Shown here: positions 18,054 to 49,574 of the stretch, piece by piece
How the letters are laid out: each line of letters starts with the position of its first letter
How positions within the stretch are numbered: position 1 is the stretch's first letter
Assembly: GCF_000227115.2 (NCBI RefSeq)
Contig: NC_016484.1
Location: forward strand, 930,001-994,000
Direction: 5' to 3'
DNA from: Naumovozyma dairenensis CBS 421
Lineage: Eukaryota; Ascomycota; Saccharomycetes; Saccharomycetales; Saccharomycetaceae
DNA: 64,000 bases
The notes under the pieces: model-generated
Told to the model about the DNA's origin: nothing
The model's database searches: none
What the model saw: the letters and a program-made list of their open reading frames with translations, nothing else
Translations under genes and position numbers: made by a program

Positions 18054-18218
18054 TTTTAGAATCAGGAGAAGAAGAAAAAAATGCATTTCAAAATAGATAT
18101 AAAAACAACTTGCATATAAAGTTACGATGTATGTATTTTTTACGTTTAATTTTTGTAAATTAAAAAATATACAGTATTTTCTACAGTTATTCATTACGAA
18201 ACTGCTTTATAAATATAC

Positions 18219-26355: not shown

Positions 26356-26705
26356 TGTGCTGATTTAGCACTAGAGCCACGGGAGTCTATTTGTTCATTT
26401 ACCTGAGAGTTATCAGGGCCGTCTTGAGTATTGTTGTTGTTGTTCATAATGCAGTTGTTGATGATGTTGTGTATTAATTATGTAATAGTTATTTACTAGT
26501 GTATGTGGCTAATTCATTATGTCTATTATATGGTAGTTCTTCTATTCTTCAGTTTTAGTACATATTCAAGGAGGGTCTCTCTATCTTCTATCTTATTACA
26601 ATATCCACGTATATATTCCACACCGCAGTCCAAGGGGTTGATCCGGGCTACATATATTCACTCACACAACAACCTTAAACTATATTTCCTCACTTTTTCT
26701 AGATT
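26356..26705 (+). mobile_element. Decayed solo-LTR-like sequence, copy A
   Basis: It begins TGTGCTGATTTAGCACTAGAG and shares an ordered series of words with two other places in the window (26747 and 43891): CACTAGAGCC, then (G/A)AGTTATCAG, then TCTTGA, and later TATATTCA-CTCACACAA. TG at the left edge and interspersed, diverged copies point to a solo LTR of a Ty-like element. The right edge is uncertain by about 50 bases. No internal gag/pol region accompanies it. Confidence 0.55.
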
Positions 26706-26746
26706 AAGGTTGTTCTCCACACCCTCTCAAAAAGAGCCATCAGAAG

Positions 26747-26940
26747 TGTTCTCACTTAACACTAGAGCCAAGGAAGGGTTCTGTGTCTGAGAGTTATCAG
26801 TGTAATCTTGAGCGTCAGTATTACTCTGTCCATTTATTTACTCCACATTATAGTTCAATTGAGGATAAAATGAATACGCTTATATTCATTCAATTGTCAT
26901 TCACTCACACAAAGAAGTTTGCTGGCATTTCACTGTTTGG
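26747..26940 (+). mobile_element. Internally deleted LTR-like sequence, copy B
   Basis: It begins TGTTCTCACTTAACACTAGAG, directly after copy A. It keeps the left block (CACTAGAGCC, GAGAGTTATCAGTGTAATCTTGA) and the right block (CCATTTATTTACT, ATATTCATT, CTCACACAA) found in copy C, but lacks roughly 100 bases between them. The right edge is approximate. Confidence 0.5.
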
Positions 26941-29839: not shown

Positions 29840-30436
29840 GATGCTAATTTTTGATAGTTTTTTTTAGGAGTTTCTTCTCAATGAGTCAGTAAGTTACTTT
29901 GATGCAATTGGGTAACTATAAGCTTAACCTGGAAGAAAGTTCTGGTGTATCCTGTTCTTCGAGCCAACACAGCTTTAATGCCATGTCAAACTTAGACGTT
30001 ACAGTTGAAACTTTTCCATAAAGGTTATTTCGCGGCAACTTTGAAAAATTCCCAACGGTAGTTGAATCGATCTTATTTAATAACAAGTGACTGACTATTT
30101 TTTTTGAAGTTGAATATTTTTAGACCATCATTGTACTGAATGATATAAACCATAACTAACTGCCGAGAGAAATAGCTCACCTTACCAGTATGTATTGATT
30201 GTATATCTAACAACGAAGAACATTATAACTTGAGTGTCAGATCACTCATAAGATCAAGATGCAAACCGATTGAATGGTGAACTTACAAGGATAGTTGTAT
30301 AAGTTTATTCTTCTGAATGACACTCTTTATTTTTTTCTAATGATATCAGCGTACGTATTGACGGAGCAAATCTCTTTATGATGAGAATTTCAAGGTAGAA
30401 AAGTGAAAATTTATTAGGTACCTGTGATGATGATAT

Positions 30437-30712
30437 ATGGGTATGATGCTGCATAGAGTCCAGCTCATCTACACACAAATTTCATATACATATATTATAT
30501 ATGGTGACTATAACTCATTCCTTTTCCCAGATGGTGAGAAGACAATACGCTCTTATTTTTACTCGATGAACAGTACAGCTAAAACTAGCAAATTCTTTGA
30601 ACCATCTTTGCAAGGTTTAACCTTGAAGGATATCTTTTCTGATGAACATAAACACGGGGAGAAAAGGTATCATGGTTATGGTTTCTCACAAAACGAGCAA
30701 GATACCTATTGA
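30437..30712 (+). CDS. Doubtful small ORF, 91 residues
   Basis: ATG-initiated frame in the spacer upstream of the adhesins. The N-terminal part looks like random AT-rich translation. From an internal Met at residue 44 the sequence is hydrophilic and more protein-like (FFEPSLQGLTLKDIFSDEH). I do not recognise it. It could be a short genuine gene starting near residue 44, a relic, or chance. Confidence 0.2.
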   Translation: MGMMLHRVQLIYTQISYTYIIYGDYNSFLFPDGEKTIRSYFYSMNSTAKTSKFFEPSLQGLTLKDIFSDEHKHGEKRYHGYGFSQNEQDTY

Positions 30713-31874
30713 AAGACATTGACATCTTCAGTAAATGCAAAATTATTTTCAAATACTAGGTTTTACATAGTCTGTGGATTCTATACGTACATATGTACCC
30801 CAATTGAGGTCTTTCCATTGTAATTAGGAAGAGGGGAAAACGTCTCGTAACGTAAATATACGTAGTTATCGGTGTCAACTTTTTTAGACTAAGGCTAGCT
30901 TTTCTTAGCTGTACTTAGCGGTTGCCATTCAGTTACATAACCCCACTAAACTATTTTCTTGAGGGAACCTTTGAAAATAAAGTACCGTACTTAACGTTCG
31001 TGTTGAAGTCCTCGGCAAGTTATGTACCTACGTAAAAAAACCTTTGATGCTCTCTCTTGAATGAATAAAGACCATACGTAACTTTCGAATATTGACTTTC
31101 AGTACCCTACCAATGGGTGCAAGACTTCTTTAAAGCTTTTTAAATATCTATTAATAACTCTTCTGCCGTACTGAGATCTCATCCATATTTGTCAGCAATG
31201 AGCAACAGATATCTCGATTTTTATATCGGATTAACAAGGATGAGTAATTGCCACAAAACATAGGTGGGACGTACACTCAGCAATATGTACCGAAGTTGTA
31301 GATCCTTTACATTACGTCAAGTATGCTAACGTAATCTTGCTCATATAATCCACTAAAGTTGCGTGGTAATTTTGCATCCACAACCTAACTGAGCTATGTT
31401 CTAAGAAAAGTGAAAAATATCGGCTTTACTTACTACACATTGTCTTTTTAGTACTTAATGCCTTCAAGGAAAAAAAGAAGAGTATAACTCTATTCTATGA
31501 CTTCCTCCTATCAGAATTACAATGCTTCTCGTAGTAGAAAGAAATTAGATAATATACTGATGAACGCCACCGCTCCAAATTCATAGCAGTGGGTCAATTA
31601 GGATTCACACTAAACTCATGAGAGGGCTACTGGACGGCCCTTGCTTTTCCTTTCGACGATTATTCCTAGTCCATTCGAAGAAAAATATGCATAACGTACG
31701 TAACGTAGGAGATCCTCAAAAGGAAAGTCCGAGCTAAAGACGGACTCTTACGCCGGTAGTTTCCATGGAGCCGTATTTAAACCCGTAGTGCACGACCGAA
31801 AAATGCGGGAAACTTGTAGACAAGGGCTATGAAAACCGGAAGCCAAATCTTGAGAACATCCCGTAGGCCGCTTA

Positions 31875-31882
31875 TTACGTAA
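31875..31882. promoter_or_regulatory. bZIP-type palindrome TTACGTAA
   Basis: Perfect 8-base palindrome of the kind bound by CREB/Yap-like bZIP factors in yeasts, about 830 bases upstream of adhesin gene 1. It lies within a cluster of related TACGTA words. Another perfect copy (35354-35361) lies upstream of adhesin gene 2. Confidence 0.35.
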
Positions 31883-32005
31883 CTTTCGCGAAGATCTTTT
31901 GATTTACGTACGTACGTTCTTCAGATCGATTAGTAATTTTTCCGAAAAACGATACAGAAACACGGGACCCTATTCTAGAAGGATTATTCCATGGCAAAAT
32001 ATCGT

Positions 32006-32052
32006 CATCTCATCTCGTCTTATCTCATCTCATCTCATCTCCTCTCATCTCA
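32006..32052. repeat. TCTCA pentanucleotide tract
   Basis: Imperfect array of CATCT/TCTCA units, about nine copies with two interruptions, in the upstream region of adhesin gene 1. It is a likely length-variable promoter microsatellite. Confidence 0.8.
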
Positions 32053-32560
32053 AGTCCTCTGCTCGTGTCTCATCCCATCCCGGGCTCCCAGTTTCCTTCC
32101 AAATCAAAAATTCAAAAACATGTTTTCAATAGTACTTTGAAATAATGTTCTCCGGTCTTACTTTTTAGATTTACCGGCCCTCTTCCATTGAATAACAGTC
32201 TAACACATCTATAGAGACATAGACTACAGTGAGGAACGAACCGTGGTATCCACGGTAAATTCACAGTGTTACTATGTATCTAACTGAAAAACCCTTTCTC
32301 TGAGATTTACGGAATCTTTCCTTTAACATTAAACTTTTGGCAAAAGGTTATGTTTAATAAGCTTTAAACCATAACTACATACTCCCTATGCCTTTATTTT
32401 AATAAAATACATCAATAGATTTTATGGCATCTCAAAGGACTCACAACTGTATGTGGATGGGGTTTTCCAACAAAAAGACGAGGATCGTAAATTATACTTC
32501 AACATGACCATGATGGGGAAGTTTGGCAAGTAAAATTGAGGTTTAAAGAAAAATCTTTCA

Positions 32561-32570
32561 TATATAAAAG
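32561..32570 (+). promoter_or_regulatory. TATA box of adhesin gene 1
   Basis: TATATAAAAG, 150 bases before the ATG at 32711. Strong consensus TATA boxes are typical of regulated, stress-responsive yeast genes. Confidence 0.55.
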
Positions 32571-32710
32571 ACAAACGTTTTCAAAGTTTATAAGAGTATA
32601 GTTGTTGATTCAATTTACTTCCTTTGCCTTTTATTTTATTTTATTTATTATGCAACTACATCAACAACAAAAACATAAACTCCAAACAAATCATTAATAA
32701 TTCAATCAAA

Positions 32711-34126
32711 ATGATGTCTAAATATTACATACTGGTAATTCTAACCAGTTTACTGTTGAATGTTGCTTCAGCATTTGATCTTTTCGGAAGACTACATTAT
32801 CTAGGGCCTGTTCAGTACTATTTCCCATTCTCTATTAAAAAAGGTAGTGTGTTTGCAATTACTCGCTGTAAACATGCTTGGTTTCACGACAATTTAAATA
32901 ATCAAGGTGATATCTGTGTTAGTTCCGCAAACGTGACTGGTAACTCCTTTCAAAACGACGGTAATTTTCTTTTAAGTGACGCCACCGATTTAAGTTTAAC
33001 AGACTTTTCTAATAATGGTTTCTTTGCTATGCGCGACACTGTTAGACCTATTGGTACTACTAAGCTATTCGCCAAAAATAGTTTTATTAACCTCGGTATT
33101 ATCCACATTGAAACTATTTTGCAACACACTCTAGGTACAGGTGGTGCTAACATGCTAAACAGGGGCACTATTGTCCTTAATGGTGGTAACCATACGTTAA
33201 GGTCTTCTTTGGTCGGCGGAGGCTGTCTTGCTTTGTTGAAGCAAGAGGAACTTCATATTGACATAAGTACAACAGTTGATAATCTAATTTACCTGGACAG
33301 TGCTAACAAAGAAATTCATTTCTCTGGTATGCCAAACCTTATCGGATTACCTATGACTTTCAGTGGCTTCACAAAGAATCATGATTTATATTTCCACGGT
33401 TCTCAAACCTCTCGTACACATTTATTAGTTGGATCATATTCTCCTTTAACCGGTACATTAGTGATTATAACCACTCCAAAACCATTCAGTGGTGCATATG
33501 ATATACTAACCAGATCAATCTACATAGGCTTCGGCTACGATATGTTCCGCTTCAACTTCGAGTTTATGACCTACAGAGGCCTCCCAGTTGTTCATATCAC
33601 TTACAATAAGCAAGGGCCAAACCAGGGTGTTCCCCACAGATGTAGAATCGATGCTACTGTCCCAAACTTTGAGCAATGTGTCTCAAGTGCAGGACCAGGT
33701 ACAACTTATGTATCAGGAACAACTCCAACTCCAATATCTACCATATCCAACTCTGCTAATACAAGAAGTACTAGTACCGTTTCAAAATCAACTGCTACTG
33801 GCTTGGTTAGTTCTGCTGACTTGATAAGTTCTGTAGTAACGTCTTCTGCCGATGTGGCACAAACAACTACCCCAGTCACCACAACTGCTGACTTGATAAG
33901 TTCTGTAGTAACATCTTCTGCCGATGTGGCACAAACCACTACCCCAGTCACAACAACTACTGACTTTATAAGCCCTGTAGTTACATCTTCAGTTGTTGTA
34001 GCACCAAGTACTACCTCCACTACCGAGCTTACCTCCTTCAAACCATCCATAATTTCCACTACAGAACGTACATCCACTACCACATCAAGAAAACCTGACG
34101 CTACTATTACTGAAAGAAAGCGTTAA
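32711..34126 (+). CDS. HYR/IFF-like cell-wall adhesin, short form (adhesin 1)
   Basis: Secreted adhesin-like protein of about 471 residues. The frame opens at a TTG at 32624, but the Met pair at 32711/32714 begins a clean signal peptide (MMSKYYILVILTSLLLN) matching the two paralogs downstream, so 32711 is used. Residues about 25-320 form the hyphally-regulated cell wall protein type N-terminal domain. Motifs shared with the paralogs include GGNHTLRSSLVGGGCLAL, HGSQTSRTHLLVGSYSPLTG and GFGYDMFRFNFEF. A short Thr/Ser/Val stalk follows with three 24-residue repeats (ADLISSVVTSSADVAQTTTP). It ends abruptly with a charged ERKR and has neither the Cys-containing tail of the paralogs nor a GPI signal. 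It also lacks the Cys found after QTFY in the others. It may be a truncated or soluble form. Confidence 0.8.
   Translation: MMSKYYILVILTSLLLNVASAFDLFGRLHYLGPVQYYFPFSIKKGSVFAITRCKHAWFHDNLNNQGDICVSSANVTGNSFQNDGNFLLSDATDLSLTDFSNNGFFAMRDTVRPIGTTKLFAKNSFINLGIIHIETILQHTLGTGGANMLNRGTIVLNGGNHTLRSSLVGGGCLALLKQEELHIDISTTVDNLIYLDSANKEIHFSGMPNLIGLPMTFSGFTKNHDLYFHGSQTSRTHLLVGSYSPLTGTLVIITTPKPFSGAYDILTRSIYIGFGYDMFRFNFEFMTYRGLPVVHITYNKQGPNQGVPHRCRIDATVPNFEQCVSSAGPGTTYVSGTTPTPISTISNSANTRSTSTVSKSTATGLVSSADLISSVVTSSADVAQTTTPVTTTADLISSVVTSSADVAQTTTPVTTTTDFISPVVTSSVVVAPSTTSTTELTSFKPSIISTTERTSTTTSRKPDATITERKR
33815..34020 (+). repeat. 72-bp minisatellite in adhesin 1
   Basis: Three in-frame units of 72 bases (24 residues). 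The first two are nearly identical (starts at 33815 and 33887) and the third is diverged. It encodes the Ser/Thr/Val stalk. Confidence 0.85.
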
Positions 34127-36505
34127 GCATATATCACGAGATAAATATTTTGCACATCCATATTGGAGGCTCTCGGTACCGTTATCGATATGGTTTTTCT
34201 ACTTACGTTATCGAGGAACTTTAACTTTTTTACTTAGAACGGTTACCTTTATATTTTTCGTTCTTATATTTTATTTTCTTTTCCTGGTGTGATTTTATAA
34301 CTTTATAATGTACTAAATAATCTAAAAACAGTCTTCGTTTTAGTTCAATATTGAGTTTTTAAACCTATCTGTTGTAAAACAACATCTTGGTTTTTTATTA
34401 AGTAGGAAACGGTGTTTGTTTTGAAAATTAAAAAAGAACATTGGGGAGTGCAAAGCCTCAAAATTCTTTGGAAATATAGGCTACTTATAACTTTAAAATA
34501 TACAGAAATTTATTGTAACTGATAAATAGATTCAAGAATATAGGAATATATTGTACAGAATAATAATTAAAAGCTACAATTCAAATTTATATTTTAATTA
34601 AGAGAAATAGTCTTTTATTTTCTTCAAAGCGAACTTCTTTTATAAGCCAAAATAACATATTAATAACTTTAATGACTAAATCTAACGAAGATGTGCCCTC
34701 CAATCTGGCAATTAAGTTGCGATATTTCTATAAGACTTCAAAGGGCAGACTTTTTGTATATTCAAAAACGTACCTATAAAAAGACGGCCGCAAATAAAAA
34801 ACATATGTAAGGTTCAGATATATAAAACGGAACTCATGGACGATGTATTTACAGGTCCGAAAATATAATATTATTTAACCTACAGTTGTATCTAACTTCA
34901 ATGCACTCAAAAGCTCCTCCAAAATTTTAGAATAGCTTGTCATAAGAATAATACTTCAAATGATTGCCTATCCAGTGCGTCAATACCTAAAGAATCATTG
35001 TAACAATCTTAGAATATTAAACTTATCACCGAATAATAAATCCCTGTAATTACTTTTGTATCTTACGTTAGAAAAGCAGTTTGAGGAGACTATCCTTAAA
35101 TACATCTCAAAACAACAACTGTCCGCCATGGGATCCGATAAGCCCTGAATCTTCATAATTTACCTACTAACTCGGTAAATAATCGATCGCAGTTGGGAGT
35201 CCAGCTTATAATACTCTAATAATAATGCGTATAAATAAATATATAGATAGATCTACGTACATAATCAGGGCACAAGTAAGATGCTGCATCATCCCATTGA
35301 TCGAAAACGTTTCAAAAAATGATTTACATTTCCTCCATGCATGTTAACGTTTATTACGTAAGGGGGCATGGGGGAAGTTAGGGTAAAAGGTAAAGGAAAA
35401 GAAGGTTTGATTGAATTTGTTTTGGCAGACAGGATAGGGTTGAGGAAAAATTGATGGTTAAATAAAAGCTAAAAAATTGGAACATATTTCTTTCTACAAA
35501 AATGAAGTGCAGGGCCTGGTAAAAGGGTTATAAAATAAGTTAAACTAATGGAGCATAGGCCTTAAGATAGGGCGCGATAGAAAAGGTTTTCTATTCCTTC
35601 CAGCTATACGTAACCTAACATTAGATGCCCCCTCCCCCCCGAAGACTAAGGAGTTGCGTGGAAATACGGGTTCCTCGGGGTTTCCTCGAAAAAAGACGCA
35701 GCGCAAATTTCCACGTCAGATTTATTTCCTCCGGTGAGATTTCCATTTTTATTCTTTCTTTGTTTGGAGTTCGGCTCACCACCTGGTTGGGAGAAGAGCT
35801 TTGAGAACGACATATCAAATTTTTGAACACAATGCAAGTTATGTACGTGAAAAGACAGTATCGACTGTACATCACAATTGAGCTACCTACACACAAATGT
35901 TCACATTTATGCTGAATATACCGGTATCATTCTTCTAGAAACAAGCAAATGATATTCGTACTTGTATAAGCTCTGAAGATCAAAATTCTGCATCTGATTT
36001 TGTTAATTACTTGGCAAAATCGTCTTCTACTAATAAGCGTTATAGTTAGTTGATTCATGCTGCTGAACTAAGAAACAAGACACATCTTTATGATCGACAA
36101 CTAGAAAGAAATAGATGCCATATATCATTTATGCAGAATTTACTTAGTGACAAAGTTTGTCATAGTTGTCGCTTCTACGAGCATTACATTTGTGCTTTTG
36201 AGAGCAATCTTCTTTATACCCCAACTAGCTTTTCATTTTTAATAGCAAATTATAGTTGAAGATTGATTTACACCTTGGATAACCATATTCTACTTTTTCA
36301 GTTTACCTGTGGTAGCGTAGAGGGAGATTTTCAAGGATACTTCACTCTCCCAAATAGTATGATGAACTTCTGTTGCTTGTAATCTTGATATTTAAAGCAA
36401 TAACCTTTATCTTCATCGAGTTTAAGATTTTTAGTTCCTTTTAAATCGTTTTCCAATTTTTTTTGGCTACAAAAAACCAAAGGAAAAATTCCCAAATTGA
36501 ATATA
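34127..36505. other. Spacer between adhesin genes 1 and 2
   Basis: A 2.4-kb AT-rich spacer serving as 3' region of adhesin 1 and upstream region of adhesin 2. It contains TTACGTAA (35354-35361), a G/C-run region (about 35355-35720, with CCCCCTCCCCCCC at about 35627), and AT-rich DNA before adhesin 2. The ORFs here are short, or begin at non-ATG codons, and resemble no family. Nothing else is recognised. Confidence 0.4.
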
Positions 36506-39500
36506 ATGTTTCCCAAATATTATATTCTGTTTACTTTAACAACTCTCATATATCAACTGGCTGCGGCCCTTGATATTACGAAAGATTTGAACCTATACGG
36601 TTCAGCCGAATATACTGACTCCATATCTATCGGCAAAGGTTTGATTTTCGCCATTAGCGGTGGTGAAAAAGTTGAATTCCAAAATAATTTACATAATAAT
36701 GGGGATTTATGTGTTGGATCCCATCATGTCCATTTTGGTTGTCCTTCTTTGAAGAATGACGGTAATTTAGTTGTCCATAACCCCCAAAAATATACTGTTA
36801 GTGGGAGTATGGATTTCCTATTAACTGACTTTTTGAATAATGGGTTCCTTGCTATTCACAATAGTTTTGCATCGTCTATGTTTGGTTCGATATTAACATC
36901 AAAGACATTCATTAACATTGGTGTCATCCACATTGAAACTTCCATGAGACTTACTTTAGGCGCATCCTCCACCTCTATCCAAAATAAAGGTACCATGATT
37001 TTCAACGGTGGTAATTATACTTTAGATTCTTCCATTATTGGTGGAGGTTGTATTGCTATGCAAAACAAACATGAAATACATATTGATATAAGTAAAACAT
37101 TTGACCAAACTTTCTACTGTGATAGTTACGAAAAAGAAATTCATTTCACTGGTTTACCAAATCTTATTGGCCTTCCAATAGTTTTTAACGGGTTCTCCAA
37201 TACCCATGAACTATATTTTCACGGTTCTCAAACCGCACGTACCCATTTCTTGGTTGGTAAGTATTCCCCTTTAACTGGTCTTATTGTTATCGTGACTACC
37301 CCAATTCCATTTAGAGGAGCTTGGGATGTTATGACAAGATCCATTTTCGTCGGTTACGGCTATGATATGTTCCAATTTAAATTTGAATTTATCTCCCATA
37401 GAGGACTACCATGTGTACACGTTCATTATAACAAACCTTGTCCACATCCTTCTATCCCTCCACATTGTAACATTACTACCGGCCTACCTTGGGATAAATG
37501 TACAGAGTCTGCTTCGAGTTCCGCTGCTTTATCAACGATTCACTACATATCCTCATCTGCTAGCATGAGCTCAACGACTCCAACGTCATCCAGTTCTGCT
37601 GTCGTTACTTCGTCCATTCAAACCGATGAATATTCTTCCTATCCTTCTACTGGTTTAGGAACACCTTCCCAACCAGCTAACACTGCTTCTGTTAGCTCAA
37701 CCGGTCTACCACCTCCATACACCACTACTGTTGTGTCTGGATCCTCCACTGAAACCGACATTGTTTCTTACTACTCCACCACCGATTCCGAAGGCAAGCC
37801 ATCCACTGGTGTCACTACCATCCCAATCCCAGGCTCTTCCCTTCCTACTGTTACTGGTGCTTCTAGTGTAACATCAAACAGAATTACTTCTGGAACCTTA
37901 ACTGAAAGCTGTTCAACATCATTAGTTATCACAACAAACACTGATTCCTACGAGATCATCAGCACCTCTTTTGAAGTGGACCTCCCAGTTTCCACATCAC
38001 TTTCATCTGTTGCTGCCTCTTCTGGTGCTTCTGGTGTACCTCCTCCATACACCACTACTGTTGTGTCTGGATCTTCCACTGAAACCGACATTGTTTCTTA
38101 CTACTCCACCACCGATTCCGAAGGCAAGCCATCTACTGGTATCACTACCATCCCAATCCTAGGTTCCTCCGCTGCTGCCTCTTCTGGTGCTTCTGGTGTA
38201 CCTCCTCCATACACCACTACTGTTGTGTCTGGATCCTCCACTGAAACCGACATTGTTTCTTACTACTCCACCACCGATTCCGAAGGTAAGCCATCCACTG
38301 GTGTCACTACCATCCCAATCCCAGGTTCTTCCGCTGCTGCCTCTTCTGGTGCTTCTGGTGTACCTCCTCCATACACCACTACTGTTGTGTCTGGATCCTC
38401 CACTGAAACCGACATTGTTTCTTACTACTCCACCACCGATTCCGAAGGTAAGCCATCCACTGGTGTCACTACCATCCCAATCCTAGGTTCCTCCGCTGCT
38501 GCCTCTTCTGGTGCTTCTGGTGTACCTCCTCCATACACCACTACTGTTGTGTCTGGATCCTCCACTGAAACCGACATTGTTTCTTACTACTCCACCACCG
38601 ATTCCGAAGGCAAGCCATCTACTGGTGTCACTACCATCCCAATCCTAGGTTCCTCCGCTGCTGCCTCTTCTGGTGCTTCTGGTGTACCTCCTCCATACAC
38701 CACTACTGTTGTGTCTGGATCCTCCACTGAAACCGACATTGTTCTTACTACTCCACCACGATTCCGAAGGTAAGCATCCANNNNNNNNNNNNNNNNNNNN
38801 NNNNNNNNNNNNNNNNNNNNNNNNNNNNNNNNNNNNNNNNNNNNNNNNNNNNNNNNNNNNNNNNNNNNNNNNNNNNNNNNNNNNNNNNNNNNNNNNNNNN
38901 NNNNNNNNNNNNNNNNNNNNNNNNNNNNNNNNNNNNNNNNNNNNNNNNNNNNNNNNNNNNNNNNNNNNNNNNNNNNNNNNNNNNNNNNNNNNNNNNNNNN
39001 NNNNNNNNNNNNNNNNNNNNNNNNNNNNNNNNNNNNNNNNNNNNNNNNNNNNNNNNNNNNNNNNNNNNNNNNNNNNNNNNNNNNNNNNNNNNNNNNNNNN
39101 NNNNNNNNNNNNNNNNNNNNNNNNNNNNNNNNNNNNNNNNNNNNNNNNNNNNNNNNNNNNNNNNNNNNNNNNNNNNNNNNNNNNNNNNNNNNNNNNNNNN
39201 NNNNNNNNNNNNNNNNNNNNNNNNNNNNNNNNNNNNNNNNNNNNNNNNNNNNNNNNNNNNNNNNNNNNNNNNNNNNNNNNNNNNNNNNNNNNNNNNNNNN
39301 NNNNNNNNNNNNNNNNNNNNNNNNNNNNNNNNNNNNNNNNNNNNNNNNNNNNNNNNNNNNNNNNNNNNNNNNNTGGTGTACCTCCTCCATACACCACTAC
39401 TGTTGTGTCTGGATCCTCCACTGAAACCGACATTGTTTCTTACTACTCCACCACCGATTCCGAAGGCAAGCCATCTACTGGTGTCACTACCATCCCAATC

Positions 39501-40988
39501 CCAGGTTCCTCCGCTGCTGCCTCTTCTGGTGCTTCTGGTGTACCTCCTCCATACACCACTACTGTTGTGTCTGGATCTTCCACTGAAACCGACATTGTTT
39601 CTTACTACTCCACCACTGATTCCGAAGGCAAGCCATCCACTGGTGTCACTACCATCCCAATCCCAGGTTCCTCCGCTGCTGCCTCTTCTGGTGCTTCTGG
39701 TGTACCTCCTCCATACACCACTACTGTTGTGTCTGGATCCTCCACTGAAACCGACATTGTTTCTTACTACTCCACCACTGATTCCGAAGGCAAGCCATCC
39801 ACTGGTGTCACTACCATCCCAATCCCAGGCTCTTCCGTTGCTGTCTCTTCTGGTTCTGCTTATCCATCATCTGGTGGAAAGAGTNNNNNNNNNNNNNNNN
39901 NNNNNNNNNNNNNNNNNNNNNNNNNNNNNNNNNNNNNNNNNNNNNNNNNNNNNNNNNNNNNNNNNNNNNNNNNNNNNNNNNNNNNNNNNNNNNNNNNNNN
40001 NNNNNNNNNNNNNNNNNNNNNNNNNNNNNNNNNNNNNNNNNNNNNNNNNNNNNNNNNNNNNNNNNNNNNNNNNNNNNNNNNNNNNNNNNNNNNNNNNNNN
40101 NNNNNNNNNNNNNNNNNNNNNNNNNNNNNNNNNNNNNNNNNNNNNNNNNNNNNNNNNNNNNNNNNNNNNNNNNNNNNNNNNNNNNNNNNNNNNNNNNNNN
40201 NNNNNNNNNNNNNNNNNNNNNNNNNNNNNNNNNNNNNNNNNNNNNNNNNNNNNNNNNNNNNNNNNNNNNNNNNNNNNNNNNNNNNNNNNNNNNNNNNNNN
40301 NNNNNNNNNNNNNNNNNNNNNNNNNNNNNNNNNNNNNNNNNNNACCATCCCAATCCCAGGTTCTTCCGCTGCTGCCTCTTCTGGTGCTTCTGGTGTACCT
40401 CCTCCATACACCACTACTGTTGTGTCTGGATCCTCCACTGAAACCGACATTGTTTCTTACTACTCCACCACCGATTCGGAGGGTAAGCCATCTACTGGTG
40501 TCACTACCATCCCAATTTCCCGTACTTCATCCTTAACGAGTGCAGTTGTTTCTTCCACTAGTACGATAGGTAGTTCCAGGAGTTCATATTCAAGTTATGT
40601 CGCACGTTCTTCGCTGTTATTTAATTCAACACAATCCTCGAAATCTGTTCCCGCTTCTACCTCGTATGTAGGTTCTAAGTCAAAACCTTCTACTGCTGGG
40701 GTTGGTATATCGTCTTCTCGTTCCACAGCAACTCTTTCGAGATCATCTAGGCCGTCAAGTGTTGTAAGTTCAGCTAGAAGTTCCTTGGTATCCTCAAACA
40801 TTGAACAATCCAAACCTTCCAGTACGACCTTCCCATCACCAACTAGTTCTTTGAATACCAGTTCGAGCACTTCCAAGAATACTATATGTTCGGCTTCCAT
40901 TCTAATCGATTGTGGGGGGGTTACATTTACAACGTTTTTCCAATATACAACAGTCACTGTAACACAGACAGAATATAAGACTAAATGA
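36506..40988 (+). CDS. HYR/IFF-like adhesin with 54-residue repeats, interrupted by two assembly gaps (adhesin 2)
   Basis: Large cell-wall adhesin. An ORF caller would start at TTG 36497; the ATG at 36506 gives MFPKYYILFTLTTLIYQLAAA, a signal peptide like those of the paralogs. The N-terminal HYR/IFF-type domain spans about 20-330, with CVGSHHVHFG, GGNYTLDSSIIGGGCIAM, HGSQTARTHFLVGKYSPLTG and GYGYDMFQFKFEF. Next come a Ser/Thr linker and a flocculin-like repeat of 54 residues (PPPYTTTVVSGSSTETDIVS start). The last ~35 residues carry the tail CSASILIDCGGVTFTTFFQY, shared with adhesin 3, with no GPI hydrophobic end. The frame appears broken at 38773, but that is three single-base deletions within 38740-38780 at a gap edge. 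I treat 36506-40988 as one gene. Confidence 0.82.
38781..39373. other. Assembly gap 1 (593 N)
   Basis: Run of N inside the adhesin 2 repeats. By unit phase the true length should be 58 + 162n bases; 544 (n=3) is nearest to the recorded 593. Confidence 0.95.
39885..40343. other. Assembly gap 2 (459 N)
   Basis: Second run of N inside adhesin 2. It is preceded by a change of sequence (SSGSAYPSSGGKS) that is not part of the 54-residue unit, so the gap may hide a different segment. Recorded length keeps the reading frame. Confidence 0.95.
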
Positions 40989-43890
40989 TTTCCTCAGGGA
41001 GAATCTAATGGACGTGTATACCTTAAAAGATAGGCTTATTTAGACATAAGCATGAGTTCGTCAATGAGATTTTATTTATATCTCTTTCAGCATTTCCATG
41101 ACTGTATTGCCCCTAAAATAATACGGTGTTTCGTTCGTTGTAAACAATTTTGACTACCATTTGTTGTATTATATATATTTAGTTATGTAGTCTAACTAAT
41201 CAAAGTAACTATCAAATTCTACTATTAAAAAAAAGCATGCATCTAGGTATTATTTATTATTATTTTTGTTATGTAGGTGTTAGATTTCTTATCGATAAAA
41301 ATTTATCTCGAATATTATTTGGAGGTTGTAATAGAGAAGAATACTTAAGATTGAGCTTACAAGAACCTTGAGTGGTGTTAAAGCCATATAACTTCGGCTT
41401 TGTAACTAGAAGAGATGATTGAAATGGTAAAACATTCATGCCTTCCGGGCATTTTGAAGACACAAAGAACGCTAAATTATTTGAATTTTGTTGCACGTTA
41501 TCCAAATACTATATGAACTCTATATTAATGAAGGGTTTACTAAGTGCCCTTATAAATTTAAAAAGAGGAGTTAACTATAATCTCAAGTTTGTGAACACCA
41601 ATTGGTGACTATTATTATGGTATTTAGTTACTCTATCCCATCCTTAAGTTTCTCCAACTTAGGCATTGTTTAAAGCAACTGTGAAAGGTTTAACGTTTAT
41701 CAGTCAAATCGGAAAAATAACTACGGTCCTCTGTGAGGTGAGTCTACCTCGTAACAACGCTACAATCGACCGAAAAAATGCGTCGCACATTTATTCCACA
41801 AGTTTTATATGGTGTAATAGCCCAATGTTACATTGCTTTGACTAATTACATAACATAGTACCGAGCAGGCGAAGGATGGGTAATGGAGAAGCTTTAAATA
41901 AAACACCCTAAGGCGTTACAGTCTGGACTATTTATCGAAAATCTATATATCAAATAAGAGTACGAAATGCATGACCTAGAGATGTTTTTATTTCAGAGGG
42001 CCGAGCAAAGGTAACTCACTTTCATCAAAATACGTCCCCCGTAGCACAAAAGTCACTGATGCATCTTAAGCAATATATCATCTTAAAAATCATGTTTTTA
42101 GTATCACGGGGTTTTCTTTTTATCTTGAAGAAAATCTCATTTCTACAAACTTTTGTTTATTGTTTGTAATCTGTTTTTTTATGTTTTTTCCATTTTAACT
42201 TCAGTAGTCTACTTTTCCTTGCATATTTATATATATACATATATATTAATGGGCAGTGCCGGTGTCATGAAAAGAACCTGTTCAATTAAGAGACTATTTA
42301 TCACAGTTTTGCTTCTCAATTCTTTACAGTTTACAGAACATGAAATCAAGGCAGTAGACCCAATTTAGACTAAACCGGGGTCGACGAAGATTAAAACTAA
42401 TTATTTTTATAATAGTGATTCAAAGTCATAGATATATGATATCGATAAAATAAATTGAATCAAGGTGATTCAAAATCTAGAGACAACAACTCTATTGAGT
42501 TGAACCAAATGTTGACAGTAGGAAATATTGCTTCTAATCCCTTTACCCCAACAACTTTAACTGCCACAATCTAGTTGAAGTAAAGGACTTCAAGTGTTAG
42601 TTCCGATAATCCAAGTCAATCAATCCCACCCTCAACAACAAATAAAAAAAAGTCTCCTAAAAATGATCCTAATTACGCTACTGGTAGAGGGAACAGTTCA
42701 CATCACATACACCATCATGGTGTTTGTCAAAATCCCAAAACGAAGACCTTTCTGTGAGGATCACTCTGCCTTGGACAACCTGTCATAATTCATGTTACCA
42801 GTGGTTATCGTTGTTATAATTAGAGAGCGAGTAAAATAATGCTAACAGATTAATTTTAAAGATTTTGTTAGGTTTTTTTATTTCTATATTAACGCAATTT
42901 AATACTAAATTCAATAAATATATCTTAGTGGTGACTATTCCATAAATGTATAACAAAAAATGGGAATTAGTCTATTGGATTCAAGTCTTTAATTTTTGGA
43001 ATTTTTTCCTCACAAAAAGTAAGATAAAACACATCTTGAGATATGTAAGTGCATGGAAACAGGTACGGGAATAGCCTATATCATTTTTCCGGGTACACTC
43101 CAATTCTAAATTAGAAATTTCTCTTTCTTTGGCATATTTTATTGATGAAACATATTAGAGAAAACATATAACCAAAGGGAAATATACCTTTCTCGGAAGA
43201 GCACGCAACCTAGGGAGAAATAAAATATAAGAGTCACCCACATCGAACGTAAGAAAATATACAATAAGTACCTCAACCTAATTTGATTACTGGAAAGAAT
43301 TTTCAATGTCGATACCATCATGAAAATATTACTAGGCTCTTTTTGAGTATCGATATGAAAATGTTCCATGTTTTTTGCCTGTAATGTTAGTGTATTTTAA
43401 AATATAATTAGGGGAGGCAGCAGAGCTTTTCTCTGTGACATTTCTTTTAACTGCTCTAGGAGATTTACGTACAAAGGTTGGGCCCGTCACAAAAAAGTTT
43501 TGCAAAATTACAAAATGTCGTGGAATTGAATTTTGAGACTTATCTTAGAAGATAGTATATATTGTCTTACGGTCGCCATTATACTTGATCAAAGAATAAA
43601 GTACTAGTATTCAACTTTTACTCTCACATCCAGGAGTCGATAAACGTAAGTATATTTTAGAGCAAACTACATCAACCTTGCAAAATTTCAACTCTTTAAA
43701 GAAAAGAGAAATACATGGATATGAAAAATAACAATGATAAAAAAAATCTCCCAGTTTAATTAAACAAAATTCAGCAAAAGTGAACAACAAAAACTAGCTT
43801 GATGTATGGCGTTAAGAACTCTTTCATTTCTTCCATCCATACAGTCTTAAATATAGAATAATGTTACGCAGTATGTATATATAAACTGTA
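40989..43890. other. Spacer after adhesin 2
   Basis: About 2.9 kb without an intact gene. It includes GAGGT-GAGTCT-ACCTC (41737-41752), a CGACCGAAAAAATGCG word (41767-41782) nearly repeated upstream of adhesin 1, poly-T/A tracts, and a decayed reading frame (42449-42757). Short ORFs at 42153 and 43139 were not judged real. Confidence 0.4.
42449..42757 (+). pseudogene. Decayed reading frame of unknown origin
   Basis: In one frame the stretch reads as hydrophilic protein-like sequence, QMLTVGNIASNPFTPTTL, then two stops within four codons, then SVSSDNPSQSIPPSTTNKKK and a His-rich segment GNSSHHIHHHG before a final TGA at 42755. Composition (Asn, Ser, Pro, Thr, Lys, His) resembles retrotransposon gag or other low-complexity yeast proteins, but I do not recognise a family. 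It lies about 1.1 kb upstream of the LTR-like copy C, so a Ty remnant is possible. Confidence 0.25.
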
Positions 43891-44225
43891 TGTTGATGTG
43901 ACACTAGAGCCCCGGAAGTGTCTCTTTTCACTCTACAGGTGAACTATCAGTGTGATCTTGAATGTCAGTGTTGTTGTTTATCTTGTTGATGTTTATTGAC
44001 CAATTAACGATTATATAAAACTGTTTACGTTGGTCAACTATATATATCTATCATTGTGTATTTACGTATTAGAGGAGAGTCTTTTTAATCTTCTCTCTTA
44101 TTACCTTGTCCATTTATTTATTGTACGGTGCAAGTCAATTGAAGGGGCTGGATCCAAGTTCCTATATATTCATTGAGTCACACAATAGTGTTTGCACATT
44201 TTCCCATCATTTCAATACCTTAGTC
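43891..44225 (+). mobile_element. Decayed solo-LTR-like sequence, copy C
   Basis: It begins TGTTGATGTGACACTAGAGCC and shares the ordered words of copies A and B: CACTAGAGCC, AACTATCAGTGTGATCTTGA, CCATTTATTTATT, TATATTCATTGAGTCACACAA. It has no accompanying gag/pol. The right end is approximate. It lies inside the adhesin insertion. Confidence 0.55.
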
Positions 44226-44263
44226 AAAAATTTTCTGATATTCTGGAATTGACCAGTTGGGCT

Positions 44264-44881
44264 CTAATAAAATATTAAAGTTCTGCTTTTCCCTTTATAG
44301 TTGGAAAGGCTGATGAGGCAAAGGGGTAGGAGCACTAGTATATACAGCATTCCTGCTAATATTAATACAGGTATTAACTTTGATATTTTACGTACACTCA
44401 ATATGGCTAAATAAGGTGAGTTCATGTGACCAAATAGGTAAATAGCTAGTATTGATGGATAGAAGTCGGACGATTCTTTTTTTGTTAGTTTATCTATTTT
44501 TAGGTGGTGATGGCCTACTGGGTCCATATGCAGCCTTACGAAGGGTAAGTTACAACTCCATGAGTACGAAAGATACGGGGTGTTTTTATGTAAAATATAT
44601 AGGGTAGTGGACGCACCAAGGGCAACCTGGAATCTTATGACATTCAAGGTATTCGATCTGCTGCATATTTCATGTAGTATGTATGCTCTGTCTGTATAAC
44701 TACAGAAATGATCTACATCCAGATGTGCAGTTGATTGACATTTTGACAAGCGACGGAGAATGCCCTGCCACAGGAGTCGCGCACTACATCGGTCGCTCAC
44801 CTTTGTTTCGAAACAGCTTTTTTTAGGAAACAATCCAAAAGAGACATTTCTGCAGTAACTATCGAGAACTTGTACGTTCAT
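44264..44881 (-). CDS. Orphan ORF, 205 residues, possible membrane protein
   Basis: An intact ATG-started frame of 205 codons, long for noncoding DNA of this composition. The N-terminal two thirds are Cys/His/Ser-rich with many aromatic residues (for example HLDVDHFCSYTDRAY). The C-terminal ~60 residues contain one or two hydrophobic segments (LIPVLILAGMLYILVLLPLC), suggesting membrane insertion. I do not recognise a family. It starts about 740 bases upstream of adhesin 3 on the other strand, next to LTR-like copy C. It could be a lineage-specific gene, a relic, or a chance frame. Confidence 0.35.
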   Translation of the reverse strand: MNVQVLDSYCRNVSFGLFPKKSCFETKVSDRCSARLLWQGILRRLSKCQSTAHLDVDHFCSYTDRAYILHEICSRSNTLNVIRFQVALGASTTLYILHKNTPYLSYSWSCNLPFVRLHMDPVGHHHLKIDKLTKKESSDFYPSILAIYLFGHMNSPYLAILSVRKISKLIPVLILAGMLYILVLLPLCLISLSNYKGKSRTLIFY

Positions 44882-45086
44882 TACATCAATTGACTTTGGT
44901 CTAGGTACAGAGTATGCACTTCATACCAAACTGCAATACATTTGCCTACAAACAGCTTATTGTTCATGTCTTTCTCTAGACTTTCAGGGTCCTTGTCCAC
45001 TTAAAGTACGTGCGTACGTGTGTAGACTAAAAGAAACAAGGAAACCAAAAGAATGGAAACTTTGCCGATATAAATTTTAATTCAAC

Positions 45087-45344
45087 ATGGAACGTTTTAG
45101 AGCTATTTGTGTACTATTATGCAATCGAACTTTGCATCAGAACAGCAAGTCAGGTGGAGTATATGCAAATATTACCAACAGCACGAGGGTAAGTTTGCCA
45201 TTCCACATAGGCGCCCCACTCATCTCCAAGACTTCTACGAATTTATTTAGCCAGGTCCCGGTAGCATACGTATCGTGTGGTCTTGCTACTGGCTATATCT
45301 TTGAAAGAAGTGTCAATTACAATTTGAACTTTACAATATTATAA
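45087..45344 (+). CDS. Doubtful small ORF, 85 residues
   Basis: ATG-started frame between the orphan ORF and adhesin 3. It contains VPVAYVSCGLATGYIFERS but no recognised domain or signal peptide. Low confidence; it may lie in the adhesin 3 leader or promoter. Confidence 0.18.
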   Translation: MERFRAICVLLCNRTLHQNSKSGGVYANITNSTRVSLPFHIGAPLISKTSTNLFSQVPVAYVSCGLATGYIFERSVNYNLNFTIL

Positions 45345-45624
45345 ACGTAAACTTTCCCTATTTTTAGTGGTATACATTGTCTACCATACATATTTAGATT
45401 TACTCCAACCAACTCACTTGGAAAAAGATTTTCAAAGGCATTTTTGATTAAGATTATTACATGGAAAATAAAAAGTCTCGACCTGGAACAAAAATACCGT
45501 CAATATGGAAGGTTTTCTATTTAAGTGAGAACGAAGAGAATCAATTATCCTTTTTGATCTGCCTTTTTCTTTTCCCCTTTACATTACCAAGAAATAGTAC
45601 ACCAACAGACGCGGAGCAAATATA

Positions 45625-48345
45625 ATGTTTTCTAAATATTATATTCTGGTAGCTTTAACAGGTTTATTATGTCAATTGGCGACAGCAGTTGATATTAGGT
45701 TTAATGAGTTCCACGAAGGTTCCAAAGAATATAATGATCCCTACGATATAGAAAAAGATGTAACTTTTGCAATTAGCAAAGGTAATAAAGTCGGTTTCCA
45801 TAAAAATATGCATAATAAAGGTCGCTTCTGTTGTGGTTCCCATCATGTTCATTTCGGCAGTGGTGAATTACACAACGATGGGGATATGATTATACACAAT
45901 CCTGGACCAGCTTCAGATGCTAATGTCAATTTCACTTTGAACAGTTTGTCCAATTCAGGTCTATTGTCTATCCAAAATACTTATGAATCTAATTCAATCG
46001 GTCAATTATTTGCTAAGGATTCTTTTATTAATAGCGGTATCATATATATGGAAACTGTTAAGCAACATGTCAAAGTTCACACTTCTTCCTCTTATATTAA
46101 TAATAAAGGGACGATGATTTTCAATGGAGGTAATTATTCTCTCCAATCATCCATTAAAGGTCATGGTTGTATTGCGTTGCAAGGACACCATCACATATAT
46201 ATCGACATGAAATATAATTACGAACAAACATTTTACTGTGATGATAATGAGAAGGAATTGCATTTTCTTGGCTCACCATCCTCAAGTTCATCCCCTCTGA
46301 TATTGCATGGGTTTTCAAACCAACATTCAATGTATTTCCACGGTTCTGAAACAGCTAAAACACATAGATTAGTTACTAGTTATAACTCCCTAACTGGTTA
46401 TATGTCTGTTATAACAAAACCCATAAAAGGTAAATCTTCGCCGGTTGAAAGAAGAATATTCATCGGGCTTGGTTACGAACATAAATACTTTAGTTTCGAA
46501 TTCACAAAATACAATGGTCATAACTGTATTCATGGTAATTACCATAAACCTTGCCCACATCCAACAAGGCCACCTGTTTGTCACTTCCCACCACCAAACC
46601 ATGGACATCATTGTCCAGGTCACCACCCGAACCCTCCTTGTACATCCAGGAAACCATCATCATCATCATCAACAATCTCGTCTACACTAATTTTCTCATC
46701 CTCCGTGTCATCCGAAATGTCTAGTTCTGTTGAAATTAGTAGCACGTTTGCTAGCCATTCCTCTGGTTCCCATATACAACCATCGAGTAGTGGATCGGTT
46801 AGCATTCATTCTAGCTCCTTCCCGGCTTCCAGCAGTGAATCCATGATTTCCAGTTCATTTGTTTCCTCTGTCTCGCACTCCAGCTCTGTTACTGTTCCAT
46901 CTTCTGCTTCTCACAGTGAATCGATGGTTTCCATGCCACCTGCATCTTCTGTGTCACACTTCAACTCTGTTACTGTTCCATCTTCTGTTTGCCACAGTGA
47001 ATCGATGATTTCCAGTTCAGTTGTTTCCTCTGAATCTCAATCCAGCTCTGTTACTGTTCCATCTTCTGTTTCTCACAGCGAATCGATGGTTTCCAGTTCA
47101 TTTGTTTCCTCTGTCTCGCACTCCAGCTCTGTTACTGTTCCATCTTCTGCTTCTCACAGTGAATCGATGGTTTCCATGCCACCTGCATCTTCTGCGTCAC
47201 ACTCCAGCTCTGTTACTGTTCCATCTTCTGCTTCTCACAGTGAATCGATGGTTTCCATGCCACCTGCATCTTCTGTGTCACACTCCAGCTCTGTTACTGT
47301 TCCATCTTCTGCTTCTCACAGCGAATCGATGGTTTCCATGCCACCTGCATCTTCTGTGTCACACTCCAGCTCTGTTACTGTTCCATCTTCTGTTTCTCAC
47401 AGCGAATCGATGGTTTCCAGTTCATTTGTTTCCTCTGTCTCGCACTCCAGCTCTGTTACTGTTCCACCTTCTGTTTGCCACAGTGAATCGATTATTTCCA
47501 GTTCAGTTGTTTCCTCTGAATCTCAATCCAGCTCTGTTACTGTTCCATCTTCTGTTTCTCACAGCGAATCGATGATTTCCAGTTCAGTTGTTTCCTCTGA
47601 ATCTCAATCCAGCTCTGTTACTGTTCCATCTTCTGCTTCTCACAGTGAATCGATGGTTTCCATGCCACCTGCATCTTCTGTGTCACACTCCAGCTCTGTT
47701 ACTGTTCCATCTTCTGCTTCTCACAGCGAATCGATTATTTCCAGTTCAGTTGTTTCGTCTGTCTCGCACTTCAATTCTGTTACTGTTCCATCTTCTGTTT
47801 CTCACAGCGAATCGATGGTTTCCAGTTCAGCTGCTTCCTCTGAATCTCAATTCAGCTCCAGCTCCATACCATATGCATCTTCTGTGTCACACTCCAGCGC
47901 TGCTACAGTGCCATCTTCTGTTTCTCACAGTGAATTGATGATTTCAAGCTCAGCTACTTCTTCTGAAACTCAATCCAGATCTAGCTTTACCTCAATGGCA
48001 AGGCCAAGTACTGTTCCATCCAATACTGGGTCCAGTCAATCGTCTAGTGTGGAGTCAATAAGTCCCTCATCTCGTTCCACCATTATTATTTCAAGGTCGT
48101 CGAGAAGTAGGTCAGTAGTTAGTTCGACAGTATCATCAGCATCTACTTCATCAACATCAACATTTGAACACTCAAAACCATCGTCCATTGGATTTGTACC
48201 TGGCACAAGCTCTTTGGAGCCTTCTAGTAGTCATACAAAGAATACTATTTGTTCTGCATCTATTTTCATTGATTGTGGTGGTACAACATTTACTACTTTC
48301 TTCCAATATGCGACGGTTACTGTCACGGAGACAATGTATAAATGA
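45625..48345 (+). CDS. HYR/IFF-like adhesin with 27-residue Ser-rich repeats (adhesin 3)
   Basis: Predicted cell-wall adhesin of 906 residues. The first ATG gives signal peptide MFSKYYILVALTGLLCQLA. The N-terminal HYR/IFF-type domain (about 22-305) carries CCGSHHVHFG, GGNYSLQSSIKGHGCIAL and HGSETAKTHRLV. It is followed by an unusual His/Pro/Cys-rich linker (about 307-341, with PNHGHHCPGHHPNPPC). A Ser-rich stalk follows (about 342-860) built from 81-base repeats in several subtypes. The last ~35 residues have the tail CSASIFIDCGGTTFTTFFQY, shared with adhesin 2, and stop at MYK with no GPI hydrophobic segment. It is on the same strand as adhesins 1 and 2, forming a tandem array. The Ser/Thr stalk is expected to be heavily O-mannosylated. 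Confidence 0.85.
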   Translation: MFSKYYILVALTGLLCQLATAVDIRFNEFHEGSKEYNDPYDIEKDVTFAISKGNKVGFHKNMHNKGRFCCGSHHVHFGSGELHNDGDMIIHNPGPASDANVNFTLNSLSNSGLLSIQNTYESNSIGQLFAKDSFINSGIIYMETVKQHVKVHTSSSYINNKGTMIFNGGNYSLQSSIKGHGCIALQGHHHIYIDMKYNYEQTFYCDDNEKELHFLGSPSSSSSPLILHGFSNQHSMYFHGSETAKTHRLVTSYNSLTGYMSVITKPIKGKSSPVERRIFIGLGYEHKYFSFEFTKYNGHNCIHGNYHKPCPHPTRPPVCHFPPPNHGHHCPGHHPNPPCTSRKPSSSSSTISSTLIFSSSVSSEMSSSVEISSTFASHSSGSHIQPSSSGSVSIHSSSFPASSSESMISSSFVSSVSHSSSVTVPSSASHSESMVSMPPASSVSHFNSVTVPSSVCHSESMISSSVVSSESQSSSVTVPSSVSHSESMVSSSFVSSVSHSSSVTVPSSASHSESMVSMPPASSASHSSSVTVPSSASHSESMVSMPPASSVSHSSSVTVPSSASHSESMVSMPPASSVSHSSSVTVPSSVSHSESMVSSSFVSSVSHSSSVTVPPSVCHSESIISSSVVSSESQSSSVTVPSSVSHSESMISSSVVSSESQSSSVTVPSSASHSESMVSMPPASSVSHSSSVTVPSSASHSESIISSSVVSSVSHFNSVTVPSSVSHSESMVSSSAASSESQFSSSSIPYASSVSHSSAATVPSSVSHSELMISSSATSSETQSRSSFTSMARPSTVPSNTGSSQSSSVESISPSSRSTIIISRSSRSRSVVSSTVSSASTSSTSTFEHSKPSSIGFVPGTSSLEPSSSHTKNTICSASIFIDCGGTTFTTFFQYATVTVTETMYK
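46804..47950 (+). repeat. 81-bp tandem repeats of adhesin 3
   Basis: About twelve 27-residue units beginning SVTVPSS, first at about 46885 and spaced 81 bases (46888 to 46969 checked), plus degenerate units at both ends. At least three subtypes alternate: MPPASSVSHSS, SSVVSSESQSS and SSFVSSVSHSS. Because the unit length is a multiple of three, long artefact ORFs appear in other frames. Confidence 0.93.
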
Positions 48346-49574
48346 AAATGATGATACCTATTGAAGCAAAATTTTCTTGCTCTAAAGTTTCCTTATCATA
48401 ATGAACAAAATTCTGTAAATTATAATGTTTTTCTTTTGCTGCCATATCTAAAGCCAATGTTCATATGATCGAGTGATTCTTTCGTTCGTTATTGGGATAT
48501 GTCTGTTCTTTTTCTTAAAGATCCCATTTTTTTATAAACTTTCGATACCCATAGCATATCTGTATACTGAATATGTGTTATATATAATTTTAAAATGAAT
48601 ACGATGATTTTAACTTCTTTACAGATTGGTAAAACCAAAATATTCTTTATCGTATTAGTTTATTTACTTGCATGGTTAACTAATAAGGCCCAGTGTGACA
48701 TGGTTTTGCTAAATGGAAAGGATAATACTCTATGTTATAGAAATGTTTATTCCAATTCTTTGCCAAACTTCTACGGGGGTGGCACCAATTTTGAGTGACG
48801 AAAAAAATGCCTATAAGAGAGGGGGGAATCAACGGTTAGTTTACCTATTGTATACTGTACACTATGGTATCAAGCATATATAATGACTATAAAAGAAATA
48901 AGACTGGCAGAAAGACATCATCCAGCGGTATGAATGCTGGGCATGAAAAAAATATATAGTAAGAAAAATTCTTCCTCCAGCAGGAATTGTGGTTCATCAT
49001 CAATACCATTAGGAAACCACTAAGACCAAACAAGCTCATGACAGAACTTGCCATGCTAACAGTTACAGTTTCTTCGAAGAGTCATAGATACCAGGGGGGC
49101 TATGGACTAATAGGGACTAATAATTATTAAATATGAGAAACAAAGTGAGACAGTAAGAATTTATCCTTTAGTTTGTTGCCAATCCTATTCTGGAATATAT
49201 GTAAACAAGAGGACATTAGTCTATATTATAGGGTCATCGTCCTTTTTATGTCCTTCTGTTTAACGTTTAGTTGTGCCAGACAATTGTTTGAACAGGCGAT
49301 TTTTCTTCTGGACGCCGCTGCCGTCTATATGGAAAACCCTGGTTAATTTTCCTTCTGAAAAGACACTTTCTACTATTACACGAGCATGAAATTTCATGGT
49401 TTTGTTCAAGTGATGAGCAAGATGAATTAAAAACCAATATGAATTTGTATTAAGATGGATTTTCAAGACCTTTCACTATTCATAATTGCTTCAGATTGAC
49501 AGCATGGGCTTTAATTTTGATCATATTTTTCAATTACTATTAGTAGAACATCTACGATATAATCTAGAATAAAT
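48346..49574. other. Spacer between adhesin 3 and RTC4
   Basis: A 1.2-kb AT-rich spacer at the right edge of the insertion. It holds one doubtful small ORF (48595) and an AT-rich RTC4 promoter. No LTR or tRNA was recognised at this edge. Confidence 0.4.
48595..48798 (+). CDS. Doubtful small ORF with hydrophobic N-terminus, 67 residues
   Basis: ATG-started frame 250 bases after adhesin 3. Residues about 14-30 are hydrophobic (KIFFIVLVYLLAWLTNKAQC) and could be a signal peptide or membrane anchor, followed by ~35 polar residues. The position just downstream of an adhesin suggests a possible relic of another family member, but similarity to the adhesin N-termini is weak. Unrecognised. Confidence 0.25.
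   Translation: MNTMILTSLQIGKTKIFFIVLVYLLAWLTNKAQCDMVLLNGKDNTLCYRNVYSNSLPNFYGGGTNFE

Follow-up and report, generated by a model that had tools for sequence, protein, structure and literature searches.

The yeast Naumovozyma dairenensis CBS 421 carries an island of three tandem genes, all on the + strand, that are members of the Hyr/Iff-Hpf1-Awp1 family (PF11765, Hyphal_reg_CWP) and lie between the homologues of TEX1 and RTC4, which we take to be immediate neighbors in Saccharomyces cerevisiae. The stretch of DNA that we analyzed, referred to here as the window, comprises 64,000 nucleotides at positions 930001-994000 of contig 6 (1,138,463 bp) in a genome of 13,527,580 bp on 11 contigs. TEX1 and RTC4 are divergently oriented, and the interval between them is exactly 29840-49574 of the window. 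Two chromosome-10 copies of gene 1 fall inside the single clade that the three genes form. The family is dispersed, mostly at chromosome-internal positions, and occupies at least 18 sites, the island among them.

The island genes and their chromosome-10 copies

The genes, the assembly gaps, and the two flanking genes are as follows (window coordinates; S/T, serine/threonine).

28364-29839, − strand: left flank, open reading frame (ORF) of the THOC3/WD40 families, presumably the homologue of TEX1 (THO complex WD40 protein)
32711-34126, + strand: gene 1; hydrophobic start, PF11765 domain, short S/T stalk, 72-bp repeats
36506-40988, + strand: gene 2; hydrophobic start, PF11765 domain, Hpf1_C (PF20646) repeats, C-terminal Cys module
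38781-39373: assembly gap in the gene 2 repeats (593 N)
39885-40343: assembly gap in the gene 2 repeats (459 N)
45625-48345, + strand: gene 3; hydrophobic start, PF11765 domain, S/T stalk, C-terminal Cys module
49575-50912, + strand: right flank, homologue of RTC4 (PF14474, E = 4.8e-27)

The PF11765 matches of genes 1, 2, and 3 run from profile position 2 or 3 to 319 or 326 of 328 and score 75.9, 114.1, and 110.3 bits against a curated cutoff of 28, with E values of 3.4e-21, 8.2e-33 (the part of gene 2 that is 5′ of the first gap), and 1.2e-31. The four spacers of the island measure 2871, 2379, 4636, and 1229 bp; the 14 other gaps among the listed genes of the window span 74 to 2400 bp. A sequence-only reading of this DNA had described three tandem HYR/IFF-like genes, all on the + strand and separated by long spacers, between TEX1 and RTC4 at 29840-49574, and the ORF limits, the Pfam families, the presence of PF11765 in each gene, and the measured spacers of 1229 to 4636 bp all agree with that description.

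Gene 1 encodes 471 amino acids, ends in SRKPDATITERKR, and is without the C-terminal Cys module, and gene 3 is an uninterrupted frame of 906 amino acids with Ser-rich repeats of 81/243 bp. Gene 2 has at least nine repeats of 162 bp of the Hpf1_C family, but in the assembly it is spread over more than one open frame, with the frame changing at the edge of the first gap. This is most simply an assembly error at the gap edge, and the repeat number and intactness of gene 2 are unproven. A hydrophobic start, read without a signal-peptide predictor, is present in all three proteins and forms a helix at residues 3 to 24 in the gene 2 model.

The two gaps within near-identical repeats and the frame change at a gap edge are what would be expected had repeat-rich adhesin contigs been wrongly put between TEX1 and RTC4, as is the existence on the same contig of another gene (C6:590k) with repeats 84% similar to those of gene 2. 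However, the stretches from TEX1 to gene 1 and from gene 3 to RTC4 are free of gaps, both sides of the island join ancestral neighbors, in an order and on strands that we take to be right, and the tree places the three genes in a single clade. Furthermore, a genome search with one 162-bp repeat gave 15 matches, 11 in gene 2 (96 to 100%) and 4 at C6:590k (74 to 84%); the matches listed at 96% or more were all in gene 2, lying on either side of the two gaps and between them, with 84% the highest value after these. We consider a misjoin very unlikely.

Relationships were read from a tree of the N-terminal domains of 18 of the 21 PF11765 genes or relics of this genome. A protein database search with gene 1 recovered only gene 1 itself among 1836 candidates, and the tree was therefore built without relatives from outside this genome. 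Within the clade of island genes and chromosome-10 copies (support, 100/100), gene 3 branches first, the chromosome-10 copies adjoin gene 1 (100/99), and gene 2 stands next to these (94/94). Removing the longest branch and a fragment left the order unchanged (100/100, 100/100, and 90/93). The local duplication implied by the sequence-only reading, which had called the island an expansion, is thus borne out. The N-terminal domains of the three island genes share 40 to 51% identity, and the ratio of nonsynonymous to synonymous substitution rates (dN/dS) in these domains was 0.26 for gene 1 versus the chromosome-10 copy at 476 kb (C10:476k), 0.23 for genes 1 and 2, 0.28 for genes 2 and 3, and 0.36 for genes 1 and 3. 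The array is therefore old, and purifying selection seems to act on its genes.

Similarity to chromosome 10 extends over 31792-34328 and is continuous from 32090. The shared segment takes in the promoter (about 70% over 32090-32710), the gene, and 0.2 kb downstream, and therefore whole-gene DNA, not a processed transcript, was copied. The chromosome-10 copies lie 39 kb apart and share 98% identity over 3.19 kb; the one at 437 kb is broken, with a frame of 169 amino acids. Sequence identity establishes the copying between gene 1 and chromosome 10, and the nesting in the tree suggests that gene 1 was the source.

Two other accounts of the chromosome-10 copies were considered and rejected. The copies might have lain in the whole-genome-duplication (WGD) sister of the block, but a SIP3 protein search matched only the window's own gene, and the chromosome-10 neighbors presumably belong to other blocks. 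They might instead have been spread by long terminal repeats (LTRs), but the LTR-like repeats nearby lie outside the shared segment. Just past the shared segment, both copies carry a stretch, 67% similar and in opposite orientations, that the LTR-like repeat profile did not match.

A dispersed family

Across the genome, 22 PF11765 matches merged into at least 21 genes or relics at 18 sites on 8 of the 11 contigs. Of the 18 sites, one is less than 50 kb from a contig end, where 1.5 would be expected, and four are less than 100 kb away (2.9 expected), the contig ends here not being shown to be telomeres. We rejected a subtelomeric origin of the family on the lack of an excess within 100 kb, and the island itself, 158.9 kb from the nearer contig end, is not in the position of a subtelomeric cluster. 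Within 200 kb, the sites are mildly overrepresented (11 of 18 versus 5.9 expected; P = 0.013), so that a fully random spread is disfavored; the median distance to a contig end is 175 kb, versus 310 kb expected (P = 0.02). Contigs C1, C3, and C4 (4.8 of 13.5 Mb) gave no PF11765 match (P = 0.0004, post hoc). Frames of 1002 and 953 amino acids at C6:590k and C7:243k have Hpf1_C repeats and no PF11765 match listed there; they appear to be other repeat mannoproteins.

Both flanks were read at 11 of the 18 sites, from frames of at least about 80 to 110 amino acids, so that smaller genes may be overlooked. Pfam gave the family of each flanking gene, and the exact names are those of the presumed S. 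cerevisiae counterparts. On this basis, the flanks are immediate S. cerevisiae neighbors at eight sites:

TEX1/RTC4
eIF2A/MUP1-like permease, with a 155-amino-acid frame between
EFB1/VPS8
MRH4-like DEAD protein/PUS1-PUS2-like
SLS1/NHA1
YTM1-like/FSF1
GYP1-like/VPS5
MAM3-like/GPD1-GPD2-like

At the other three, the flanks are non-neighbors or one is unnamed:

C7:398k: GRX7-like/CSG2 (CSG2, at C7:402k, named after Pfam)
C11:558k: unknown protein/RAD54
C8:272k: helix-loop-helix protein/MTW1

The count of 8 in 11, which stands without a genome-wide background for conserved adjacency, shows sites of this type to be frequent but does not show that the family favors them. The idea of an internal expansion site holds for the TEX1-RTC4 interval insofar as it is chromosome internal and its genes were duplicated locally, but the place is not exceptional, being one of 18, with 7 of the 10 other sites read also falling between S. 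cerevisiae neighbors. The accompanying premise that adhesins are usually subtelomeric describes only a tendency. In Candida glabrata, a review places 44 of 67 adhesin-like genes close to telomeres (PMC6023314), and 17 Hyr/Iff genes of Candida parapsilosis form tandem arrays of two to five at six loci (PMC3338533).

Spacers and the surrounding gene block

The spacers of the island and the dispersed repeats within them are as follows.

29840-32710: spacer on the promoter side of gene 1 (2.87 kb)
34127-36505: gene 1-gene 2 spacer (2.38 kb)
40989-45624: gene 2-gene 3 spacer (4.64 kb), with dispersed repeats and a degenerate stretch
43579-43699: short dispersed repeat, at 9 other places in the genome (71 to 77%)
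43881-44198, + strand: solo-LTR-like dispersed repeat, at 14 other places in the genome (66 to 78%)
48346-49574: spacer upstream of RTC4 (1.23 kb)

Genome searches with 34100-36500 and with 48300-49574 returned only the self-match. When the adhesin N-terminal domains were compared with the window, the three genes being masked, nothing scored below an E value of 0.3 and nothing fell within the island. The C-terminal modules, with the low-complexity filter off, gave weak matches in the island (best E = 0.008, at 42515-42625), which we attribute to composition because unrelated genes match better (best E = 0.0006, near 9 kb). These N-domain and C-terminal module searches thus revealed no clear adhesin pseudogene in the spacers. 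The degenerate stretch, at 42299-42530, is akin to C2:810.2-810.7 kb in short blocks at 74 to 87% and is a dispersed relic.

Upstream of gene 1, at 0.8 to 0.9 kb, the stretches 31792-31822 and 31859-31908 are 90% identical to the chromosome-10 copies and are candidate regulatory elements. The same spacer holds nine TACGTA palindromes, versus 2.4 expected from their rate in the remaining intergenic DNA of the window (Poisson P = 0.0008, for a motif picked after looking), and these may point to regulation by basic leucine zipper factors of the Yap/Cst6-like kind. It also holds a 92-amino-acid frame (30434-30709), and a 155-amino-acid frame adjoins the C10:476k adhesin (C10 locus, 4983-5447). Neither has a Pfam match, and they have in common a weak FPDGE-containing stretch (E = 0.02).

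Pfam families along the window match the order from ZWF1 to ATX1:

ZWF1, ATG2, SLA2, CWC25, VPS75, cysteinyl-tRNA synthetase, RPA49, RAD50, NRD1, MRPL17, TEX1, island, RTC4, GIS2, FOL1, SIP3, DSL1, ATX1

SUI1, between SLA2 and CWC25, is a 108-amino-acid ORF recognized by eye only. The block follows the S. cerevisiae order YNL241-YNL259. MPA43, presumably YNL249C in that series, is missing, as the 165-bp gap between RPA49 and RAD50 (18054-18218) leaves no room for it. The earlier description of the block as perfectly conserved therefore fits as to order but is slightly too strong. The 2.4-kb gap between NRD1 and MRPL17 contains two LTR-like repeats (26347-26681 and 26738-26911) of the same family as 43881-44198, the assignment resting on a profile built partly from the copies that it then matched; blastn alone connects the first of the two (26347-26681).

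Likely function and origin of the island

The model predicted for gene 2 has a beta-helix plus alpha-crystallin fold in its A-domain and is closest to Awp1/Awp3b of C. glabrata (clusters V/VI; PDB 7o9o, 7o9p, and 7o9q), at 18 to 19% identity to the modelled protein. A sequence search of the PDB with gene 2 gave one match only, to an antibody chain (E = 0.28). The C termini of 16 of the 21 genes or relics were read, and in none did a 12-residue window within the final 30 residues exceed a mean hydropathy of 1.56, which points against a glycosylphosphatidylinositol (GPI) signal in the family. In this the island proteins would differ from Awp1/Awp3b, described as GPI-modified wall proteins in PMC8746771. 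We consider it most likely that the island genes encode secreted surface proteins with heavy O-mannosylation, whose probable role is in adhesion between cells or to a substrate or in setting the surface properties of the wall. The lack of a visible GPI-like tail makes it probable that they are released or are retained in the wall by a route other than GPI.

They might instead be non-adhesive, haze-factor-like mannoproteins resembling Hpf1 that tune surface hydrophilicity and buoyancy, a role that is possible but that we regard as doubtful. The gene 2 repeats are of the Hpf1_C family, the GPI-less ends suggest release, and HPF1 repeat expansion turned sedentary S. cerevisiae buoyant, as reported in PMC7263189. 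The predicted fold, on the other hand, is closest to Awp1/Awp3b, and the study that solved these structures reports that their relative Awp2 influences adhesion to polystyrene (PMC8746771). The fold does not decide between the two roles, because the same study places the Hpf1 N-terminal domain in the InterPro family of Hyr1.

Taken together, including the surface role and the release or non-GPI retention, the following explanation seems to us probable. An ancestral PF11765 cell-surface gene would have landed in the divergent TEX1/RTC4 promoter region and been duplicated there twice, gene 3 lying outside genes 2 and 1 in the tree; gene 1 and its promoter would later have been copied as DNA to chromosome 10 and duplicated again 39 kb away. 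The beta-helix plus alpha-crystallin A-domain, which may be ligand binding or surface active, would be carried on an S/T-rich repeat stalk that lengthens or shortens through repeat recombination, and the proteins would be released or held in the wall via a conserved, mostly Cys-containing C-terminal module.

The alternative that adhesins were already present at TEX1-RTC4 when the Naumovozyma lineage arose and later disappeared from S. cerevisiae would suit N-terminal domains so far apart (40 to 51% identity; synonymous divergence [dS], 1.6 to 1.7) that the array is old, and no insertion footprint is left at the locus. Absence from S. cerevisiae, which we presume, nevertheless needs only one gain on this lineage, and we judge an ancestral presence to be rather unlikely. 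Several points weigh against the explanation that we prefer. The branching of gene 2 with gene 1 has support of just 94/94 and 90/93, the amino acid makeup of gene 3 is unlike that of the others, and the dS of the island pairs is near saturation. The spacers are without clear adhesin relics, and therefore no intermediate of the expansion is preserved. Confidence in the fold is moderate (range of scores for the five models, 70.5 to 32.6; residues 269 to 292 fall below 50 in predicted local distance difference test score), and the absence of GPI signals was read from simple hydropathy over the final 30 residues, with neither a positive control nor a trained predictor.

Judged by title, none of the papers returned by searches on Naumovozyma and adhesins deals with this locus or family in that genus. 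The C. parapsilosis arrays, likened here by description, have the same N-terminal family but belong to a different clade; 11 of the 17 genes are short, with a secretion sequence and no intragenic repeats, and only one of these 11 has a predicted GPI anchor (PMC3338533), whereas genes 2 and 3 have repeat stalks and the C-terminal module. Iff11 of Candida albicans, again compared by description, is likewise a Hyr/Iff protein without a GPI anchor, O-glycosylated and secreted (Bates 2007, as cited in the same paper). S. cerevisiae Hpf1, compared by family only, shares PF20646 with gene 2 and is encoded on chromosome XV (PMC7263189), not at TEX1-RTC4.

The island is thus a further case of a known kind, and a variation on a known theme, because the C. 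parapsilosis arrangement is similar. Tentatively, and with more doubt than conviction, we suggest that this post-WGD yeast may have a dispersed rather than subtelomeric repertoire, in which GPI-less Awp1-fold proteins with their own, mostly Cys-containing C-terminal module have spread singly with their promoters into ancestral intergenic regions over eight chromosomes, beyond subtelomeric silencing. If adhesin families do expand internally, telomere-linked recombination and silencing would not be required for their spread. N. dairenensis would then offer a natural contrast to C. glabrata, with a shared fold but no subtelomeric excess and no GPI-like tails, and it raises the question of how an Awp1-type protein without GPI is retained in the wall.
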